A DNA stretch of 64,000 nucleotides from the NCBI RefSeq assembly GCF_000177635.2, contig NC_014836.1:787501-851500 (forward strand), given 5' to 3'. The notes below the pieces were generated by a model. It worked only from the letters and a program-made list of their open reading frames with translations. It was not told the DNA's origin and ran no database searches. Positions 7,785 to 62,735 of this stretch are shown here, piece by piece; the first letter of the stretch is position 1; each line of letters starts with the position of its first letter. The translations under genes were made by a program, and so were the position numbers. This DNA is from Desulfurispirillum indicum S5 (GTDB lineage Bacteria > Chrysiogenota > Chrysiogenetes > Chrysiogenales > Chrysiogenaceae).

Positions 7785-7810
7785 CCCGCCCCCCCCAGCC
7801 GGGGGGCGGG
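7785..7810 (-). other. Strong GC hairpin between napA and napD
   Basis: CCCGCCCCCC pairs with GGGGGGCGGG around a six-base loop (CCAGCC) inside the 52-base napA-napD gap. No T-run follows on the minus strand, so it is not a classical terminator. It could stabilise the 3' end of napA mRNA or attenuate transcription, making NapA more abundant than NapDGH. Confidence 0.6.
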
Positions 7811-10588: not shown

Positions 10589-10843
10589 TATCTCCTCCTT
10601 GGAAACTGTGCATGCGCTTGGGAATGTGCATGCATTCACAGCCTGGTAGAGCATTTCTGATGCCAATTGAAGACGATACGCCCTGCCCTCGCCCATGAGG
10701 CTCTGGGAAAGCTTTCGCGATGGAAGGACCCTTGACGCTTGATGTCTGATGCGGGAGAAAATGTGGCAGGCGAGAAAAAAGGTGTCGGTGAATTTATTCA
10801 CAAGACCCATCGCGTTTTTTTCTTCATTGCGCTGGGGAAATTT

Positions 10844-12403: not shown

Positions 12404-12742
12404 ATGCTGAAGCGAATTCTGTTTACCGTTGCTTTCGTAGCAATGGCCTCTTCTGCCGCCCTGGCCGGTGAAGGTGGAAGTGGAAGCGCCATGGTATTGA
12501 CGGCTATCATGATTGGCGCTGGTATTGGTATGGGTCTTGGTGCACTGGGTACCGGTATCGGTATGGGTAATGCTATTCAGGGTGCGACTGAGGGTATTGC
12601 GCGCAACCCCAATGCTTCCGGTAAAATCATGACTGCCATGATCATCGGTCTGGCCATGATCGAGTCTCTGGCGATCTATACTCTGGTTATCGCCCTTATT
12701 CTCCTCTTTGCCAACCCTTACTCAGCTGCATTTTTCGGTTAA
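12404..12742 (+). CDS. atpE: ATP synthase F0 subunit c
   Basis: A 112-residue c subunit with an N-terminal signal-like extension ([21 protein letters not shown]) ahead of the usual hairpin. Helix 1 has the glycine repeat [18 protein letters not shown]. The polar loop is ARNPNA. Helix 2 carries the ion-binding Glu87 in [17 protein letters not shown]. Ser88 and Tyr92 resemble the Na-binding set of Ilyobacter-type rings, but the helix 1 glutamine is Met54, which argues for proton coupling. A strong terminator follows. Confidence 0.95.
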
Positions 12743-12782: not shown

Positions 12783-12812
12783 AGCGACAGTGTTCACACT
12801 GTCGCTTTTTTT
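12783..12812 (+). terminator. Rho-independent terminator after atpE
   Basis: AGCGACAGTG (12783-12792), loop TTCA, CACTGTCGCT (12797-12806), then a T-run. It ends the atpZIBE operon and is immediately followed by the rex promoter region. Confidence 0.92.
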
Positions 12813-12815
12813 CTT

Positions 12816-12861
12816 TTGAAAATTCCCCGAACATTGTATTATTTGTGAATACATTAACCAA
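12816..12861 (+). promoter_or_regulatory. rex promoter with a probable Rex operator
   Basis: TTGAAA (12816-12821) and TATTAT (12837-12842) form a promoter with a short spacer. Directly downstream TTGTGAA (12843-12849), four bases, then TTAACCAA (12854-12861) resembles the Rex site TTGTGAA-N4-TTCACAA with one imperfect arm. Placed just ahead of rex, it suggests autoregulation by the NADH/NAD ratio. Confidence 0.6.
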
Positions 12862-12882: not shown

Positions 12883-13504
12883 ATGAAAATTCCCGAAGCC
12901 ACCATAAGACGACTCTCCACCTATATTCGAGTCCTTGATTCTCTGGAAAAAAAAGTCAACGGAAGTCATTTCCAGTGGGGAGCTCTCGACACTGTGTGGC
13001 TACAACTCTGCCCAGATTCGCAAGGATCTTGCGTATTTCGGTGAAATGGGAGTGCGTGGCGTTGGGTACTATGTCTCCGAACTCAAGCACGAAATTGAGC
13101 ACATCATGGGGCTGAAAAATATCTGGAATGTCGCCCTGATTGGCGTCGGTAATCTGGGTCACGCCCTGATTTCCTATAATGGTTTTCGGAAGTCCGGTTT
13201 CCACGTGCGGCTGGCCTATGACCGTGATGAGAACAAACTGACCGGGCTGCCCCCGGAAATTCAACCCGTGACCTGCATGGAGCAGCTGGGGGAAGCGCTT
13301 AAAAAGCAGAAAATTCAAATAGGCATTATTGCCGTTCCGCCCGACTCGGCCCAGAATGTGGCGAACCTTCTTACCAGCAATGGAATTCAGGGAATTCTGA
13401 ATTTCACGCCTATGCGCATCAAGGTTCCCGAAAATGTGAAAGTCAAGTACGTCGATTTTACCATTGAGCTGGAAACCCTTGCATTTTACCTGTCAAAGAA
13501 ATAG
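12883..13504 (+). CDS. rex: Redox-sensing repressor Rex, reading frame broken at an A8 run
   Basis: Rex represses respiratory and fermentation genes and is released by NADH. Starting at ATG 12883 the protein begins MKIPEATIRRLSTYIRVLDSLE, a classical Rex N terminus (winged helix). At the eight adenines 12947-12954 the frame is lost. One A fewer (or a +1 slip) would join it to STEVISSGELSTLCGYNSAQIRKDLAYFG and the rest: the Rossmann motif GVGNLGHAL and the C-terminal domain-swap helix ending LETLAFYLSKK. The joined product is 206 residues, the normal Rex size. As written, the ATG frame stops at about 13044. The second part could start only from TTG at 12935, giving 189 residues without the first DNA-binding helix. 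Sequencing error, mutation or transcriptional slippage are all possible. Confidence 0.85.
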
Positions 13505-13539: not shown

Positions 13540-14505
13540 TTGAAAACAATACCAGAACTTGTTATCGGAAAATTGCGTCCACGCTATCCCTTGCTTCAGG
13601 GTGGCATGTCGGTTCTCGTCTCGAATCCCTCGCTCGCCGCTGCTGTCAGTAATGCAGGCGGCATAGGTACACTTGGCGGGACCGGGGTCAGCCCCGAGCT
13701 TCTCTATAAAATGGTGCAGGAGACAAAAAAACTGACCAGCGGTATTGTCGCGGTCAACATCATGGTTGCAGCGAACCATTTTCTTGAGCTGGTGCAGGCC
13801 GCCATTAAAGGTGGTGTGGATATGGTGGTTGCAGGCGCAGGTATCTCCAAGCAACTGTTCCAGATCTGCCGTGAAGCCGATGTGGAAGTGGTGCCGATTG
13901 TGTCGAGCCTGCGTATTGGGCAGTTTGTGGAAAAAATGGGTGCCAGTGCCATTGTTGTGGAAAGTGTCGAAGCCGGTGGTCACCTGGGTACGGAACTGAC
14001 CCTGGACGAAATGTTTGCTGAAATCAAACAGGGAATGAAGATCCCCGTTATCGCTGCCGGTGGACTAACTGATGGCAAGGATGTTGCCCGCATGTTCCGA
14101 CAGGGTGCCGATGGGGTCCAGCTGGCAACCCGCTTTGTGCTCAGTGATGAATGCGACGTGCATGAAAACTATAAGAAAGTCTATCTGAATGCGCGCGAAG
14201 AGGATATTACGACGATTCTCAGCCCGGTTGGCTATCCGGGGCGGGCCATTATTACCCCCTTTGTCGAGCGTTTTCTGCGCGATGGCAAGGTACCGGTGAA
14301 ATCCTGCAACCAGTGTCTCAAAAGCTGCAGTCACACATTCTGTATACGGGATGCCCTGATCAAGGCGCGCGATGGAAATATTGAGGAAGGCCTTTTCTTC
14401 GCCGGGAAAAATGTGCACCGTATCAAAGAGATCAAGCCGGTTGCCCAGATCGTCGAAGAGATAATGGGCGAAGCTCGTGATATCCTCGCTGCCGAGGCGC
14501 AGTGA
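13540..14505 (+). CDS. Nitronate monooxygenase / 2-nitropropane dioxygenase-like FMN protein
   Basis: A 321-residue TIM-barrel flavoprotein of the NMO/FabK superfamily. The start is TTG at 13540 behind AAAGGA, beginning MKTIPELVIGKLRPRYPLLQGGM. FMN-binding signatures include GGIGTLGGTG, VVESVEAGGHLG, PVIAAGGLTDGKDVARM and GADGVQLATRFV. The family members are nitronate oxidases or enoyl-ACP reductases (FabK), and the exact substrate is not clear. A cysteine cluster near residues 262-274 (CNQCLKSCSHTFC) is not part of the classical NMO site and may bind a metal or iron-sulfur cluster. It is 36 bases after rex and likely cotranscribed. Confidence 0.8.
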   Translation: MKTIPELVIGKLRPRYPLLQGGMSVLVSNPSLAAAVSNAGGIGTLGGTGVSPELLYKMVQETKKLTSGIVAVNIMVAANHFLELVQAAIKGGVDMVVAGAGISKQLFQICREADVEVVPIVSSLRIGQFVEKMGASAIVVESVEAGGHLGTELTLDEMFAEIKQGMKIPVIAAGGLTDGKDVARMFRQGADGVQLATRFVLSDECDVHENYKKVYLNAREEDITTILSPVGYPGRAIITPFVERFLRDGKVPVKSCNQCLKSCSHTFCIRDALIKARDGNIEEGLFFAGKNVHRIKEIKPVAQIVEEIMGEARDILAAEAQ

Positions 14506-18682: not shown

Positions 18683-19789
18683 GTGTGTCGAATTGGAGCT
18701 ATTAAATCGAAAGACTACCTGCACCCCAGCTGGGCACTGCGACTGATGCGGTCCCAGCAAAAAGGGCATGACAACTCCGGCTTTGCCATGGTTATGCAGG
18801 ATCTGGGGGGGGTGTTTGAAAACTACAAGAAATATCCCATCCTCTCCATGGCCTGCACCGAGCAGGGAATGAAAATTGCCGAAGACATCCTGCACTCCCT
18901 GGGATTCAGCCGCATTGGCCAGTGGAACCCGGAAATCCGCCCTTCTGATGACTTGAATATCGAACCCATGCCCCTCTACGTCTTTCAGCTCTTTCATTAT
19001 CCCAAGCATCTGCGTAACGCCACCGATGAGGAAAAAGAAGCCCTGCTGGTGGATACCCGCATCACCTTGCGCCGCGAACTGGAAAAAACCGGTGATGGCT
19101 ATGTCTACTCCTTCTGGCCCGATACCCTGACCCTGAAAGAGATCGGCGATCCCACTGATATAGGCACCTACTTTAACCTGTGGGAAGAATCTAAAGACTT
19201 CACTGCCCGTAATATCACCGCCCAATGCCGTCAGAATACCAACTATGATATCGTGCGTTACGCGGCGCACCCCTTCTTTCTCCAGGGCTATACCGTACTG
19301 GCCAATGGCGAGAATACCTTCTACGAAAAAAATCGTCATCTGCAGAAAAGCCTGAACAAAGGCTATATCGGTTTTGAATCCGACTCGCAGTGCTTTCTCT
19401 ATACACTCCACTATGTGCATCGTGAGCTGAAATGGCCACTGCAGTACTACAAGCACACCATCACTCCGCTGCCCTTTGAGGAGATTCAGCAGCGTGAGGA
19501 TCGCGATGTTCTGCTGCGTATCCGCTCTTCGCTGTCGCACCTGGAAATCAATGGCCCCAATACCATCATCGGCGTGCTGCCTGATGGCACCATGTTCACG
19601 TGCTGTGACTCCAAAAAACTGCGACCCGTTGTTATCGGCAAAACCGATGACATGGTGGTCATCAGCTCTGAAGTCAATGGTGTGAACGAGATCCTGCCCG
19701 ATCGTGACTGGAGGCAGGATATCTATCCCCATGAGCGTGAAACCATTGTCATCCATGACAGCCTGGAGGTGAGCCGATGGCAACAATGA
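18683..19789 (+). CDS. Glutamate synthase, glutaminase (class II amidotransferase) subunit
   Basis: A 368-residue protein corresponding to the amidotransferase domain of GltS as a separate polypeptide. The start is GTG at 18683 behind GGAGG. Residue 2 is Cys (MCRIGAIKSKDYLHPSWAL), which becomes the N-terminal nucleophile after Met removal. The substrate block QQKGHDNSGFAMVMQD follows near residue 27. It releases ammonia from glutamine for the synthase subunit encoded next, whose start overlaps this gene by 13 bases. This split arrangement is typical of archaeal-type glutamate synthases. Confidence 0.88.
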   Translation: MCRIGAIKSKDYLHPSWALRLMRSQQKGHDNSGFAMVMQDLGGVFENYKKYPILSMACTEQGMKIAEDILHSLGFSRIGQWNPEIRPSDDLNIEPMPLYVFQLFHYPKHLRNATDEEKEALLVDTRITLRRELEKTGDGYVYSFWPDTLTLKEIGDPTDIGTYFNLWEESKDFTARNITAQCRQNTNYDIVRYAAHPFFLQGYTVLANGENTFYEKNRHLQKSLNKGYIGFESDSQCFLYTLHYVHRELKWPLQYYKHTITPLPFEEIQQREDRDVLLRIRSSLSHLEINGPNTIIGVLPDGTMFTCCDSKKLRPVVIGKTDDMVVISSEVNGVNEILPDRDWRQDIYPHERETIVIHDSLEVSRWQQ

Positions 19790-44392: not shown

Positions 44393-47017
44393 ATGGCACA
44401 CAAATACGTATTCTTTTTTGGTGATGGCAAAGCGGAAGGCGACGGTTCCGACAAGGGACTGCTGGGTGGCAAGGGTGCCGGGCTGGCGGAAATGACCAAC
44501 CTGGGTATTCCCGTTCCTCCGGGATTTACCATCTCAACAGAGGCCTGTATCTCCTATTATACCAATAACTCACAGTATCCTGCGGGCATGTGGGATCAAC
44601 TGCTGGAAGCGTTGAAGAAGCTGGAAGTGGCTACGGGAAAGGGTTTTGGCCGTGTGGAAAATCCCCTGCTGGTATCCGTGCGCTCCGGCGCCCGTGCCTC
44701 TATGCCCGGTATGATGGATACGGTTCTGAATCTGGGTCTCAACGACGAGACCGTTCTTGGTCTGGCGAAAAAGTCAGGGAATGAACGCTTTGCCTGGGAT
44801 TCCTACCGCCGCTTTATCTCCATGTTCGGCGATGTGGTGCTCGACGTTGCCCACCACCACTTCGAGGCCATTCTGCGATCCATGAAAAGCGAACGCAATG
44901 TGCAGGTGGATACCGACCTGACGACAGCGGACCTCAAGGAGCTGGTGGGCAGGTACGAAGACCTTGTCAAAAAAGAGACCGGCGCCCCCTTTCCCCAGGA
45001 GCCGCTGGAACAGCTCAAATACTCTATCAATGCCGTGTTCGGTTCCTGGAACAACCCCCGTGCCAAAACCTACCGCCGTATCAATAAAATCCCCGACGAC
45101 TGGGGCACCGCTGTCAATATTCAGGCTATGGTCTTTGGGAACATGGGTGATACTTCCGGCACCGGCGTCGCCTTTACCCGGAACCCCTCCACCGGTGAGA
45201 AGGCATTTTTCGGGGAGTACCTCATCAATGCCCAGGGAGAGGACGTGGTGGCCGGCATTCGCACTCCCGAACCCATTGCCAGCCTCAAGGACAAGATGCC
45301 CGAAGTCTATGGGCAGCTCGAAGAAGTCTATCTGCGTCTGGAAGCCCACTACAAAGACATGCAGGATATCGAGTTCACCGTGGAGCAGAATGTGCTCTAT
45401 ATGTTGCAGACCCGCACCGGAAAGCGCACGGCACGCTCTGCTATCAAGATAGCCCATGACATGTTCAACGAAGGTCTTATTGATAAGAAAACCGCCGTGC
45501 TGCGGGTGACCCCTGAACAGGTGGACCAGCTGCTGCACCCCATGATCGACCCCAACGTGCAGTATACCGCCCTGGCCAAGGGGCTGCCCGCCTCTCCCGG
45601 TGCGGCAGTTGGGAAAATAGTCTTTCAATCTGAACATGCCGAAGACTGGGCCGGGCGTGGCGAAAAAGTCATCCTCGTGCGGGTGGAAACTTCGCCCGAT
45701 GATATCGGTGGCATGAACGTGGCCCAGGGCATTCTGACCGCTACCGGCGGTATGACCAGTCACGCCGCCGTGGTCGCCCGTGGCATGGGCAAGTGCTGTG
45801 TTGCCGGCTGTGGCGCGCTGCAGATTGATGCCGCGAAAAAGGAACTGCGCATCGGCGACACGGTGCTCAGGGAGGGAGATTTCATCACCATTAACGGTAC
45901 CACCGGTGAAGTAATCAACGGCCAGGTGGATCTGGTGGAGCCGGAGCTCTCCAGTGAATTTGCCGATATTCTCGACTGGTCCGATGAATACCGACGCCTG
46001 GGTGTGCGCACCAATGCTGATACGCCCCATGATTCCACCGTGGCCCGTGAATTCGGAGCCGAAGGCATCGGCCTGTGTCGCACCGAGCATATGTTCTTTG
46101 AAGGAGACCGCATTGACGCTGTGCGCGAGATGATTCTGGCCGAAAGCCCCGATGCCCGTCGCCGTGCTCTGGCGAAAATCAAACCATATCAGAAGGAAGA
46201 TTTCCTGGGCCTCTTCCGCGCCATGGATGGCCTGCCCGTGACCATTCGCCTGCTGGACCCCCCCCTGCACGAATTTCTGCCCCACACCGAGCAGGATATT
46301 CAGAAAGTGGCCAACGCCACAGGGCTCTCCGCAGCCCAGCTCAAGCGCAAGGCTGAGGAACTCCACGAGTTCAACCCCATGCTGGGCCACCGTGGCTGCC
46401 GCCTGGGCATCTCCCACCCCGAAGTCTATGAGATGCAGGTGGAGGCCATCATGGAAGCCGCCTGTGAGCTCAAGAAAGAGGGTCTTGACGTGAAGCCCGA
46501 AATCATGATTCCCCTGGTGGGCCATGTGAAGGAACTGGCAGAGCTGCGGGAGATGACCGTCAGCGTCAGCGATGAAATCATTGCCCGCTACGGCGTGGAA
46601 ATGCAGTACCTGGTCGGTACCATGATTGAGCTGCCCCGCGCCGCCATCACGGCCGATGAAATCGCCCGCGAAGCAGACTTTTTCTCCTTTGGCACCAACG
46701 ACCTCACCCAGACCACCCTGGGCATCAGTCGTGACGATTCCGGCAAGTTCCTGCCCCTCTACGTGGAGAAGAAGATCTTCCCCGAAGACCCCTTCGTTTC
46801 CATTGACGAAGCCGGTGTGGGCGTGCTGGTGCAAATGGGTGTTGACAAGGGGCGTCAGACGCGGCCCGATATCAAGACCGGCATTTGTGGTGAGCACGGC
46901 GGAGATCCTGCTTCTGTCTTTTTCTGCCATCGCATTGGCCTTGATTACGTCAGCTGTTCGCCCTACCGTATACCCATAGCGAGGTTGGCTGCGGCCCACG
47001 CGGCCTTGAGCGAATAA
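44393..47017 (+). CDS. ppdK: Pyruvate, phosphate dikinase
   Basis: An 874-residue enzyme interconverting pyruvate + ATP + Pi and PEP + AMP + PPi. N-terminal ATP-grasp ([42 protein letters not shown]), the swivelling domain with the phospho-His (about residue 457, [19 protein letters not shown]), and the C-terminal PEP/pyruvate barrel ([31 protein letters not shown]). GGGGAGG precedes the start. It gives reversible glycolysis/gluconeogenesis, common in anaerobes. A terminator follows directly. Confidence 0.97.
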
Positions 47018-57554: not shown

Positions 57555-57737
57555 CTTTATCCTCCTTAAATCAGCACCTATTTGAATAGAGCGATGACGG
57601 ATATTACATGAAGAAGACGGCCGCTATGTTCCAGTATTTAAAACCTCTTGGATTTAATAAGAAAAAAAGAGAGCAGATTAAAGTGGGCCCAGTTGTCCAG
57701 ACATATTTCGAGGAAGTTTAAGTTTTCTTATTGCAGC

Positions 57738-58550
57738 CTATGCCGCAAGCTTTTCCTCCTTTATTCTAAATACTGACATGTACATTTTGTCTGGTGTTCT
57801 GTAGTCAAGAGACTGATGAAACCTTCTGCTATTGTAGAAGGTGAAGTATCGCTTTACTCCTTCCTTGAGTTCGGTCATGTTCTCATAGCATTTGATATAG
57901 ATGTTTTCGTATTTCACACTGCGCCAAAGGCGCTCTACGTAGACATTGTCAAGGGCTCTGCCTTTGCCGTCCATGCTGATTCTGATGCCGTGACTCTTGA
58001 GTCTTTGCGTAAATGCCTCTGAGCTATATTGGCTTCCCTGGTCGGTGTTGAATATCCCAGGGACTCCATAGCGTCTGATGGCTTCATCCAGTGCTTCGAG
58101 GCAAAAGCAGGTATCCATGGTGTTGGAGATGCGCCAGCTCAGTACTTTGCGGCTGAACAGATCTATGATAGCTGTCAGGTACACCGTCTTGGCGCCAAGC
58201 TTCAAGTACGTGATATCAGTGGCCCAAACCTGGTTGGGAAGCCAGATATTCAATCCTCGCAGCAAGTACGGATACTTCTTGTGCTGCTTGTTGGCCCGTG
58301 AAAGATTGGGTTTGGGGTAAATCGCACGCAGCCCATGCTTGTGCATAATGCGCCGCACCTGTTTGGAACTCACGGCCATATCATGTTCCTCATTGAGCTG
58401 TATGGCTATCTTGCGATAACCGAAGGTGGGAATGTCTTGCAGCACCCTGAGAACAACCTTCAGTATTTCAAGATCAGATTCCTCCAGCGCCGACGAACGT
58501 GACTGGTAATAGTAGGTCGAGTGGCTGATGCCAAGCAACTTGCACTGCAT
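57738..58550 (-). CDS. IS3-family transposase OrfB (copy 1)
   Basis: A 270-residue integrase-core protein: HTH_21-type N terminus (GISHSTYYYQSRSSALEESD), then DDE residues in VWATDITYLKLGAKTVYLTA, FNTDQGSQYSSEAFTQRLKS and ALDNVYVERLWRSVKYENIY. Normally made as OrfAB by -1 frameshifting on an A9 run near the end of orfA; the -1 frame is open from there into orfB. Confidence 0.93.
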   Translation of the reverse strand: MQCKLLGISHSTYYYQSRSSALEESDLEILKVVLRVLQDIPTFGYRKIAIQLNEEHDMAVSSKQVRRIMHKHGLRAIYPKPNLSRANKQHKKYPYLLRGLNIWLPNQVWATDITYLKLGAKTVYLTAIIDLFSRKVLSWRISNTMDTCFCLEALDEAIRRYGVPGIFNTDQGSQYSSEAFTQRLKSHGIRISMDGKGRALDNVYVERLWRSVKYENIYIKCYENMTELKEGVKRYFTFYNSRRFHQSLDYRTPDKMYMSVFRIKEEKLAA

Positions 58551-58579
58551 CCGTATGCTCAGGTTTTTATGGCCTGGCT

Positions 58580-58897
58580 CTATGGCATTTTTGGCTCGTG
58601 ACCGTAGAGTTGCACATACTTTTTTTTTAGGAAGTCCTTCTCAACCTGAAGCATGCCAATTTGCTTGTAAAGGGCGTCAACATTGCGATCCTCTTTGTCC
58701 TTGCCCTTCTTCTTGTTGGGACGATCGAATATATCAGGCATGGCTTCCAGAGCACGCTTCTTCCACTCCTTGATCTGCTGGGGATGAACCTCATACTCCT
58801 GAGCCAGCTCCTGAACAGTCTTTTCTTCACGCAGCGCCTCAAGGGCTACCTTGGCTTTGAACTCATTGGTAAATGTCTTACGTTGCACTATAGTCAC
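58580..58897 (-). CDS. IS3-family OrfA (copy 1)
   Basis: A 105-residue helix-turn-helix protein ([38 protein letters not shown]) with a leucine-zipper-like tail. GTG start; GTG at 58888 is better spaced from GGAG. The T9 on the plus strand (A9 in mRNA) is the likely frameshift site. Confidence 0.9.
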
Positions 58898-58989
58898 TCT
58901 CCAGGTGATGTTTGGATCAGGTCAATCTACGCCACTTCCGATGACTTTGCCAAACTTAAACCCCTGTCCGATTTACTGGGCCCATTATA

Positions 58990-59157
58990 GATATGCCGTG
59001 CTTGCGACATACCTCCTTCACCGGCAAACCGGATTCCACTTCCTTGAGAATAGACACTATCTGCGATTCACTGAAACGGGACTTTTTCATCTTGAGCCTC
59101 CTGGGGAATTCCAGAATACTCTAATTTCTACCTGTCGGGTATAGGGGGAAGCTTACA
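58990..59157 (-). pseudogene. 5' half of an IS407-like orfA with its left IS end, cut by IS3 copy 1
   Basis: Leftward from ATG 59090: MKKSRFSESQIVSILKEVES and GLPVKEVCRKHGI, the start of an IS407/IS51-group OrfA. It then runs into IS3 copy 1. The upstream part to about 59157 (TGTAAGCTTCCCCCTATACC on the minus strand) is probably the left terminus of that IS. The other half is at 62110 onward. Confidence 0.8.
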
Positions 59158-59296: not shown

Positions 59297-60600
59297 GGCT
59301 CTTCCGTATTGAGGATACATTGACAAAAAAGTGAGCATGGTGCCACTTATCGGGATTACAACCAAATAATTCCGGGAGAAGCACCATGCTCACCAGTGTT
59401 CTTTACCATGCCTACGGCCTTGCTGGCTACGATTACATCCGCACAGAGTATTGCGGCAATACCATCAATTTCCATGTCCGGCCCCGTAAAAAGCTGATTC
59501 GCTGCCCTGCGTGCCTTGGCCGTTCTGTCATATTACGCGGCAGTAGCATTCGTCGGTTACGAGGTTTGCCTTTGGGGATCAAGTCCACTTGGTTGCACGT
59601 CCACGTTCCACGCATCCAGTGCCTTCAGTGCGGTAGTGTCAGGCGGGTGAGTCTGAAAATAGCCTCTCCACGGTGTTCCTACACCCATGCATTTGCTCGG
59701 TATGTGGTCTCCCTTGCCCAAGCTATGACCCTCATTGATGTAGCACGGCTTCTTGGTATAGGCTGGGACCTGGTCAAGTCCATTTTCAAGCAGTATCTGC
59801 ATCATCACTACAGTAGCCCTTCACTTGCTGGGCTTGAGTATATCGCCATTGATGAGAAATACACAGGACGCAAACATGGCTTCATTACTCTCGTCATTGA
59901 CCTTGGTTCAGCCAGGGTCGTATACGTTGGAGCAGGCAAACAGGCAGAAGCGCTTGATGGTTTCTGGAAACGCCTTGGTCGTCGCAAGTCATCTATCAAA
60001 GCCGTTGCTGCTGACATGAGTCCGGCTTACCGGTCGGCAGTGCTCGAACACCTTCCATCTGCTGCGTTGGTGTTTGATCGTTTCCATGTCGTCAAGCTTA
60101 TGAATGAACGCCTTACCGATATTCGCCGCGAGCTGTACCATGAGCTCACAAGTCAGCATGACAAGAGCATTCTCAAAGGCACTCGCTGGATGCTTCTCAA
60201 AAATCCGCAGAGCATTGGCGAGCAAACCAGTGATCATGAACGCCTTGAACTTGCCCTGCAGGCCAATCGACCATTGGCGGTTGCCTATTACATGAAAGAA
60301 GATCTCCGCCAGATATGGCAACAAACTGACAAGGTAACTGCCACGGTATTCCTCGATGACTGGATCAACAGGGCTCAAGCATCAGCTATCAAAGGATTGA
60401 AGAAAATGGCCAAAACGCTGGAGAAGCACCGAGAGGGAATCCTGAACTGGTATGATCACCCCATATCAACAGGACCACTTGAGGGGATCAACAACAAAAT
60501 TGATACCCTCAAAAGGCAAGCCTATGGATACAGAGATATGGAATTCTTCGAGCTCAGAATAAAGGCCCTCCATAATTCAAAGTACGCTTTAACCGGATGA
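59297..60600 (+). mobile_element. ISL3-family insertion sequence (about 1,304 bp)
   Basis: Begins GGCTCTTCCG and ends at CCGGATGA. ACCGTTAC occurs directly on both sides (59289-59296, 60601-60608), matching the 8-bp duplication of ISL3 elements. The imperfect terminal repeats align best if the right ACC is counted as IS (GGCTCTTCCG versus GGTTCATCCG), so the exact right border is uncertain by 3 bp. Confidence 0.85.
59386..60600 (+). CDS. ISL3-family transposase
   Basis: A 404-residue transposase. N-terminal zinc-finger pairs CPACLGR and CLQCGSV; DDE core with GLEYIAIDEKYTGRKHGFIT, VAADMSPAYRSAVLEHLPS, VFDRFHVVKLMNERL and the late LEGINNKIDTLKRQAYGYRD. The stop codon is the last three bases of the element as drawn. 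Confidence 0.93.
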   Translation: MLTSVLYHAYGLAGYDYIRTEYCGNTINFHVRPRKKLIRCPACLGRSVILRGSSIRRLRGLPLGIKSTWLHVHVPRIQCLQCGSVRRVSLKIASPRCSYTHAFARYVVSLAQAMTLIDVARLLGIGWDLVKSIFKQYLHHHYSSPSLAGLEYIAIDEKYTGRKHGFITLVIDLGSARVVYVGAGKQAEALDGFWKRLGRRKSSIKAVAADMSPAYRSAVLEHLPSAALVFDRFHVVKLMNERLTDIRRELYHELTSQHDKSILKGTRWMLLKNPQSIGEQTSDHERLELALQANRPLAVAYYMKEDLRQIWQQTDKVTATVFLDDWINRAQASAIKGLKKMAKTLEKHREGILNWYDHPISTGPLEGINNKIDTLKRQAYGYRDMEFFELRIKALHNSKYALTG

Positions 60601-60890
60601 ACCGTTACCTGCTATCTTGGACACTACTCAAGTATGGGAGCGATGCTCCTTAACCAGATGAGTTATGAAGCCTACAGTCTTCGCTGGGGAGCATCCGGCT
60701 GGAATATAAATCTGACAGAAGATATTTCAGCTATGCTTACCGCAGGATTTGGGCTGGATGTAGAAAAACAGACTAAGGGTTAGAAAACAGGGTACATCTA
60801 TAATGGGCCCAGTAAATCGGACAGGGGTTTAAGTTTGGCAAAGTCATCGGAAGTGGCGTAGATTGACCTGATCCAAACATCACCTGGAGA

Positions 60891-61208
60891 GTGACTATAG
60901 TGCAACGTAAGACATTTACCAATGAGTTCAAAGCCAAGGTAGCCCTTGAGGCGCTGCGTGAAGAAAAGACTGTTCAGGAGCTGGCTCAGGAGTATGAGGT
61001 TCATCCCCAGCAGATCAAGGAGTGGAAGAAGCGTGCTCTGGAAGCCATGCCTGATATATTCGATCGTCCCAACAAGAAGAAGGGCAAGGACAAAGAGGAT
61101 CGCAATGTTGACGCCCTTTACAAGCAAATTGGCATGCTTCAGGTTGAGAAGGACTTCCTAAAAAAAAAGTATGTGCAACTCTACGGTCACGAGCCAAAAA
61201 TGCCATAG
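60891..61208 (+). CDS. IS3-family OrfA (copy 2)
   Basis: A 105-residue protein identical to OrfA of copy 1. The A9 run at 61160-61168 allows -1 slippage; the -1 frame then reads without stop through the gap into orfB. Confidence 0.92.
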
Positions 61209-61237
61209 AGCCAGGCCATAAAAACCTGAGCATACGG

Positions 61238-62050
61238 ATGCAGTGCAAGTTGCTTGGCATCAGCCACTCGACCTACTATTACCAGTCACGTTCGTCGGCG
61301 CTGGAGGAATCTGATCTTGAAATACTGAAGGTTGTTCTCAGGGTGCTGCAAGACATTCCCACCTTCGGTTATCGCAAGATAGCCATACAGCTCAATGAGG
61401 AACATGATATGGCCGTGAGTTCCAAACAGGTGCGGCGCATTATGCACAAGCATGGGCTGCGTGCGATTTACCCCAAACCCAATCTTTCACGGGCCAACAA
61501 GCAGCACAAGAAGTATCCGTACTTGCTGCGAGGATTGAATATCTGGCTTCCCAACCAGGTTTGGGCCACTGATATCACGTACTTGAAGCTTGGCGCCAAG
61601 ACGGTGTACCTGACAGCTATCATAGATCTGTTCAGCCGCAAAGTACTGAGCTGGCGCATCTCCAACACCATGGATACCTGCTTTTGCCTCGAAGCACTGG
61701 ATGAAGCCATCAGACGCTATGGAGTCCCTGGGATATTCAACACCGACCAGGGAAGCCAATATAGCTCAGAGGCATTTACGCAAAGACTCAAGAGTCACGG
61801 CATCAGAATCAGCATGGACGGCAAAGGCAGAGCCCTTGACAATGTCTACGTAGAGCGCCTTTGGCGCAGTGTGAAATACGAAAACATCTATATCAAATGC
61901 TATGAGAACATGACCGAACTCAAGGAAGGAGTAAAGCGATACTTCACCTTCTACAATAGCAGAAGGTTTCATCAGTCTCTTGACTACAGAACACCAGACA
62001 AAATGTACATGTCAGTATTTAGAATAAAGGAGGAAAAGCTTGCGGCATAG
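61238..62050 (+). CDS. IS3-family transposase OrfB (copy 2)
   Basis: 270 residues, identical to OrfB of copy 1, with the complete DDE integrase core. The reading frame is -1 relative to orfA. Confidence 0.94.
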   Translation: MQCKLLGISHSTYYYQSRSSALEESDLEILKVVLRVLQDIPTFGYRKIAIQLNEEHDMAVSSKQVRRIMHKHGLRAIYPKPNLSRANKQHKKYPYLLRGLNIWLPNQVWATDITYLKLGAKTVYLTAIIDLFSRKVLSWRISNTMDTCFCLEALDEAIRRYGVPGIFNTDQGSQYSSEAFTQRLKSHGIRISMDGKGRALDNVYVERLWRSVKYENIYIKCYENMTELKEGVKRYFTFYNSRRFHQSLDYRTPDKMYMSVFRIKEEKLAA

Positions 62051-62109
62051 GCTGCAATAAGAAAACTTAAACTTCCTCGAAATATGTCTGGACAACTGGG
62101 CCCACTTTA

Positions 62110-62735
62110 ATCAGATGCCACGTACTATAACTGGAAATCCAAGTATGGTGGCATGCAGGCGTCAGATCTTCGTCGTATGAAGGAGCTTGAGCGAGAACTT
62201 TCCAAACTTAAGCGAATGTATGCGGATATGGCTCTTGAGAATCACGCTCTTCGTGGCTTGATCGAAAAAAGCTCTGAGGCCGAGCGCGCAGCGTGATGCT
62301 GTAGAGCACCTTATCAGCGAACACCGTCTTTCTGTGCAGCGCAGCTGTCAGTGTGTCGGTCTGTCGCGCTCGGCCTGGTATTACAAGCCCAAAGAGAAGC
62401 CCTCTGATGATGCTGTGATCGAAGCTATTCATAAGGTATTGGAAAGCAAACAACAGTGGGGGTTCTGGAAAGTATGCCAGAGTCTTCGTAGAGAACACCC
62501 CTGGAACCATAAGCGCATTTACCGCGTATATCGCCTCCTGAAGCTGAACTTTCGAAACAAGGGGAAAAAGCGTCTGCCCGCTCGTGTGAAGATGCCACTG
62601 CTTGCTCCGCCACAGCCAAATCAGACCCGTCTGCTGATTTCATGAGCGATGCGCTGTGCTCTGGACGGCGTTTTCGGACATTGAATGTCCTTGACGACTG
62701 TAACCGCGAAGTGGTTCACATCGAAATTGATACCT
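62110..62735 (+). pseudogene. IS407-like element: 3' half of orfA and truncated orfB
   Basis: Starts DATYYNWKSKYGGMQASDLR, continues to a stop at 62294-62296. orfB follows in the next frame (AQRDAVEHLISEHRLSVQRS, CVGLSRSAWYYKPKEKP, KGKKRLPARV). It suffers a one-base shift near 62625 (resuming as SADFMSDALCSGRRFRTLNV) and stops being IS-like near 62735, about half way through a normal OrfB, where RHS sequence begins. Non-functional. Confidence 0.8.

Follow-up and report, generated by a model that had tools for sequence, protein, structure and literature searches.

An otherwise ordinary rex gene of Desulfurispirillum indicum S5 is split by a one-base homopolymer indel in the deposited sequence

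Repressors of the Rex family bind operators of the form TTGTGAA-N4-TTCACAA in an NADH-sensitive manner, and the D. indicum sites reported below are operator-like by sequence alone. D. indicum respires selenate, arsenate and nitrate. Genes whose frame is interrupted at a poly-A tract have been described in other bacteria. The poly-A frameshifted genes of Blochmannia are thought to be rescued by slippage, with demonstrated cases cited (PMC3017870), and in Citrobacter rodentium the A11 run of tssM1 gives about 20% full-length protein (PMC4256274).

Here we describe the rex gene of D. indicum S5, in which the reading frame changes at an A8 run. The gene lies in a window of 64,000 nucleotides (genome 787501-851500), the whole stretch of DNA that was analysed, and its surroundings are as follows (window coordinates).

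12404..12742, + strand: atpE, ATP synthase subunit c (PF00137), the upstream neighbour of rex
12783..12816, + strand: hairpin with a T run, resembling a terminator, in the atpE-rex interval
12843..12860, no strand assigned: Rex-operator-like palindrome TTGTGAATACATTAACCA in the rex leader, with 2 mismatches to TTGTGAANNNNTTCACAA
12883..13044, + strand: 5' fragment of rex, 24 correct codons and 29 out-of-frame codons (53 aa)
12935..13504, + strand: remainder of rex in the +1 frame, holding the end of the winged helix, the NAD(H)-binding Rossmann domain and the C-terminal helix
12947..12954, + strand: A8 run; the equivalent codons of the nearer relative (G002) have A7, one base fewer
13046..13501, + strand: putative re-initiation product of 152 aa, Rossmann part only
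13540..14505, + strand: nitronate monooxygenase-family gene (PF03060), the downstream neighbour of rex

The frame that starts at ATG 12883 opens MKIPEATIRRLSTYIRVLDSLEKK and then runs through 29 foreign codons to TGA 13042-13044. Owing to the A8 run at 12947-12954, where the local sequence is GG-A8-GTCA (12945-12958), the first 24 rex codons sit one base off the frame of the remainder. The initial annotation had described rex as split by one extra A, and the reading frames bear this out: the ATG frame is correct up to the run, and the remainder of Rex continues one base out of frame, open from 12935 to 13504. TTG 12935, at which the long frame begins, is merely a mechanical start. The claim that dropping a single A restores a 206-residue Rex also holds, since skipping one base of the run fuses the two parts without any further stop. 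An A9 version of the run leads into the third frame, which is closed.

Domain searches place the break within Rex itself. Residues 2-24 of the short product match positions 1-23 of the PF06971 (Put_DNA-bind_N) profile and the long frame matches positions 21-48 of 49, so the split falls inside one Pfam domain, and the winged helix is found in the rex gene as a whole and in neither frame singly. The NCBIfam Rex models are divided between the two frames in the same complementary way. Because the long frame scores 236.6 bits against the NCBIfam Rex equivalog model (cut-off 217), the split is beyond chance. This frame also carries the Rossmann-type nucleotide-binding domain (PF02629, E 7.3e-18) and aligns to the solved Rex structures 5zz5, 1xcb and 2vt2. 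In the deposited sequence Rex does not occur as a single uninterrupted frame, the frame changing at 12947-12954, and a search of the whole genome (2,928,377 bp, a single contig) found no second rex. The D. indicum locus is an ordinary Rex gene bearing a one-base homopolymer indel.

Among 60 genomes searched, a close rex was present in two, both from the same family as D. indicum. The nearer relative (G002) has 72% identity to the D. indicum rex and the more distant one (G001) 62%; in both the gene is intact and lies in the order atpB-atpE-rex-nitronate monooxygenase family, as in D. indicum. The nearer relative, too, shows a GC-rich hairpin of this kind with a T run between atpE and rex. At the site of the run this genome reads CTG GAA AAA AAG TCA, that is GG-A7-GTCA, in frame, and the more distant relative reads GAG CTA CAG GGC ACT, with no A run. 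Because the nearest genome carries an in-frame A7, the A8 is a derived or erroneous state.

Substitutions were polarised with the more distant relative serving as outgroup. Those assigned to the D. indicum branch fell at codon positions 1+2 versus 3 in the ratio 25:39, and those assigned to the branch of the intact sister in the ratio 29:36 (Fisher P 0.59). In a simple mixture, having more than about 20% of the D. indicum branch unconstrained fits poorly (P 0.036 at 20%, 0.013 at 30%), and comparison with the two intact relatives found no additional stop or indel in the D. indicum gene. As the codon-position bias equals that of the intact sister, we infer that the lesion either arose recently, does not exist in the living strain, or is bypassed. 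This speaks against an old pseudogene. Intact constraint separates neither recent mutation, error nor effective bypass from one another.

The palindrome in the rex leader suggests that rex may be autoregulated. Its significance was taken from a genome-wide count, in place of plain-shuffle probabilities: 13 sites as good as 12843-12860 were listed across the genome, and the number expected in the 122-base leader is 0.0005. No Rex-like site was found upstream of rex in either relative. The motif also resembles CRP-type sites, and the relatives lack sites at rex or atp. A second palindrome, CGGTGAATTTATTCACAA, with 2 mismatches to the Rex consensus, lies at window 10786-10803, with a c-type cytochrome/molybdopterin oxidoreductase pair of the - strand on one side and the atp genes of the + strand on the other; before the atp genes of either relative there is no site with fewer than four mismatches to that consensus. 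The best Rex-operator-like site of the genome, TTATGAAATATTTCACAA, with 1 mismatch, is at genome 914904-914921 (L047), between divergent genes, one of which codes for a protein of 457 aa that contains a CxxCH haem motif. In the same operator scan the palindromic word TTAGGAAGTCCTTCTCAA or its complement recurred at genome 730945, 846127, 848644, 1000985, 1003187 and 1041343, and this word may belong to a repeated or mobile element.

We also examined how the run in rex compares with others in the genome. There are 132 exact A8 runs, and within the window A8 runs exceed dinucleotide shuffles (10 matches versus a mean of 1.7). In a census of 107 distinct runs of at least 8 A or T, 54 lay inside frames that stay open for 40 codons or more on each side and for 130 codons or more in total, and a split-like layout was seen at 18 runs, rex included. 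Codon-usage scoring beside A8 runs proved too weak for frame changes, so open-frame and Pfam checks were used. Among the 18 split-like candidates, Pfam-scanned in part, only rex and an IS3-like element showed a Pfam-level split at the run. The Pfam scan was the sole check applied to the candidates; it left out L027, L099, L125, L141 and L144, took one fragment only for L024, L028, L030 and L100, and matched several fragments to no family. Because A8 runs within open frames are common in this genome, the run in rex is unremarkable and is no special switch. Homopolymer length is a classic weak point of 454 data. The S5 genome was built from 454 reads, and Illumina data at about 222x served to correct its consensus (PMC3368425).

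Other repeats and tracts lie in the same window. Two identical 1328-base IS3-like elements (57676-59003 and 60785-62112) are inverted and 1781 bases apart, and a further copy is in L102. In the IS3-like element, orfA (HTH_Tnp_1) and orfB (rve) overlap at an A9 run at window 61160, in the -1 direction. A 404-aa open frame between the two copies (59386-60600, + strand) reads by eye like an ISL3-type transposase. G8/C8 tracts are classic slippage sites, and the window holds three such runs, at 7789-7796, 18805-18812 and 46258-46265, one of them just downstream of a molybdopterin oxidoreductase gene and the other two inside long open frames.

Our preferred explanation of the split gene is that strain S5 has recently acquired a replication-slippage mutation, with a probability of about 0.5. 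In this model, slippage during replication would have expanded A7 to A8 by a single base, perhaps during isolation or culture, and the culture that was sequenced would truly carry the extra base in fixed form. Translation from the ATG would then yield a peptide of 53 residues that has no functional DNA-binding domain and lacks the recognition helix. Beyond this, the cell would make at most low levels of full-length Rex or, from ATG 13046, of a fragment with the Rossmann part only, and NADH-responsive repression would be largely lost. The A7 and intact rex of the nearer relative, the constraint kept on the gene, the operator-like site in its leader, the Illumina correction and the census of A/T runs all speak for a recent slip. 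Against it, a single miscalled run is possible, and an error would equally show unrelaxed selection. The initial annotation had named loss of Rex or a sequence error as the plain alternatives to mixed output, and these are the likeliest readings. Most likely, the one-base split reflects either an error in the sequence or a slip that happened very recently, rather than a new control mechanism.

If the consensus is in error, rex would be normal in the living strain, with A7, and the deposited sequence would carry one A too many. This is possible, if somewhat unlikely: 454 data, with their weakness in homopolymer length, supplied much of the assembly, the nearer relative has A7 and the rest of rex looks functional, but the consensus was corrected with deep Illumina coverage. 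Wholesale miscalling of A8 runs is unsupported, as about half of those examined (54 of 107) sit in long open frames.

Phase variation and leaky slippage, taken together, are unlikely. Reversible phase variation would make A7 the Rex-on and A8 the Rex-off state, with the sequenced culture mostly off. A single homopolymer indel in a regulator that is otherwise intact, one slip distant from the A7 of the nearer relative, is what it would predict. However, contingency tracts are usually longer than eight bases, runs of this length occur often in the genome, many of them within open frames, and the run is absent from the more distant relative, which together make reversible switching improbable. 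The mixed output raised as a possibility in the initial annotation, by slippage or phase variation, is weakly supported: the A8 run that it relied on is present, but the run is unconserved and the flanking RNA structure is at chance level. Leakage at a low level or reversible slippage may nonetheless occur. We regard as unlikely the idea that NADH control works through a reversible A7/A8 switch or leaky rex slippage, with a mixture of Rex-on and Rex-off output.

A further proposal keeps the A8 and has the cell rescue it, enough full-length Rex being made from A7 or A10 transcripts or by a +1 ribosomal slip at AAA-GUC. Compensation of A8 does require one of these three events. The Blochmannia and tssM1 cases are precedents, the sequence constraint on rex persists, and a tRNA-Lys slip from AAA to AAG would give exactly E-K-K-S-T. 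Known rescued tracts, however, are mostly longer (A9-A12), and the slippery site is unconserved, being A7 in frame in the nearer relative and no run at all in the more distant one. In E. coli, transcription errors in homopolymers are mostly insertions, and uninterrupted runs are the starting point of fewer than 1% of deletions (PMC5574713); an insertion here would give A9 and lead into the closed frame. Bacterial polymerase slips only on runs of seven T or more, and for A the run must be longer still, above seven adenines (PMC6260861). Folding of the sequence before and after the run found no stimulatory RNA structure flanking A8 beyond chance (z -0.15, 0.31, -0.53). Nothing points to an efficient +1 slip of tRNA-Lys, and one at low level would restore the normal sequence. 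On this evidence we consider a rescue sufficient for Rex function highly improbable.

It is scarcely credible that the short frame and re-initiation at ATG 13046 serve a new function, producing an NADH-binding Rex fragment without the DNA-binding domain. TGA 13042-13044 of the short frame and ATG 13046, which is in the Rex frame, are indeed separated by one base, and in Pfam the 152-aa product matches the Rossmann-type domain only (PF02629, with no PF06971 match). But this methionine is present in both intact relatives, which makes the TGA-ATG adjacency a chance result of the frameshift; the winged-helix sequence is still conserved, and on reading, a Shine-Dalgarno-like sequence is not evident before ATG 13046. 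An old, decaying pseudogene was rejected, there being no relaxed constraint and no other lesion, as was a programmed -1 shift at A-AAA-AAG, which goes in the wrong direction into a closed frame.

S5 is the type strain of its species, and according to its genome paper the phylum has only three other cultured species (PMC3368425). If the A8 is real, the physiology of S5 may be that of a strain whose NADH-dependent repression does not work, and annotations that have Rex begin at a TTG or list it as missing mislead; if it is an error, the deposited entry needs correction. Real or error, general understanding is unchanged. A literature search found no proteome or transcriptome of D. indicum.

Compared with the described Rex repressors (PF06971 and PF02629; 1xcb, 2vt2, 5zz5), the two D. 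indicum frames together give the full domain order. The locus resembles known Rex in its winged-helix and glycine-rich nucleotide-binding sequences and in the Rex-like operator upstream, and differs from it in that the deposited gene holds the whole protein in no single frame. With the poly-A frameshifts of Blochmannia (PMC3017870) it shares one poly-A indel in a gene that is otherwise intact and shows no accelerated evolution; those genes, however, lie in AT-rich genomes, have tracts of 9 or more and have been shown to be rescued by transcriptional slippage, whereas the D. indicum rex has A8 at 56% GC. In tssM1 of Citrobacter rodentium (PMC4256274), as in rex, a poly-A run is out of register with the remainder of the gene, but there the run is A11 and insertion rescues it, with about 20% measured, while in rex a single insertion fails to restore the frame. 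The IS3-like orfA/orfB pair of D. indicum shares with rex an A run where two frames of one gene meet; that site, however, is an A9 with a -1 shift in a mobile element, where recoding is usual, and rex would need +1.
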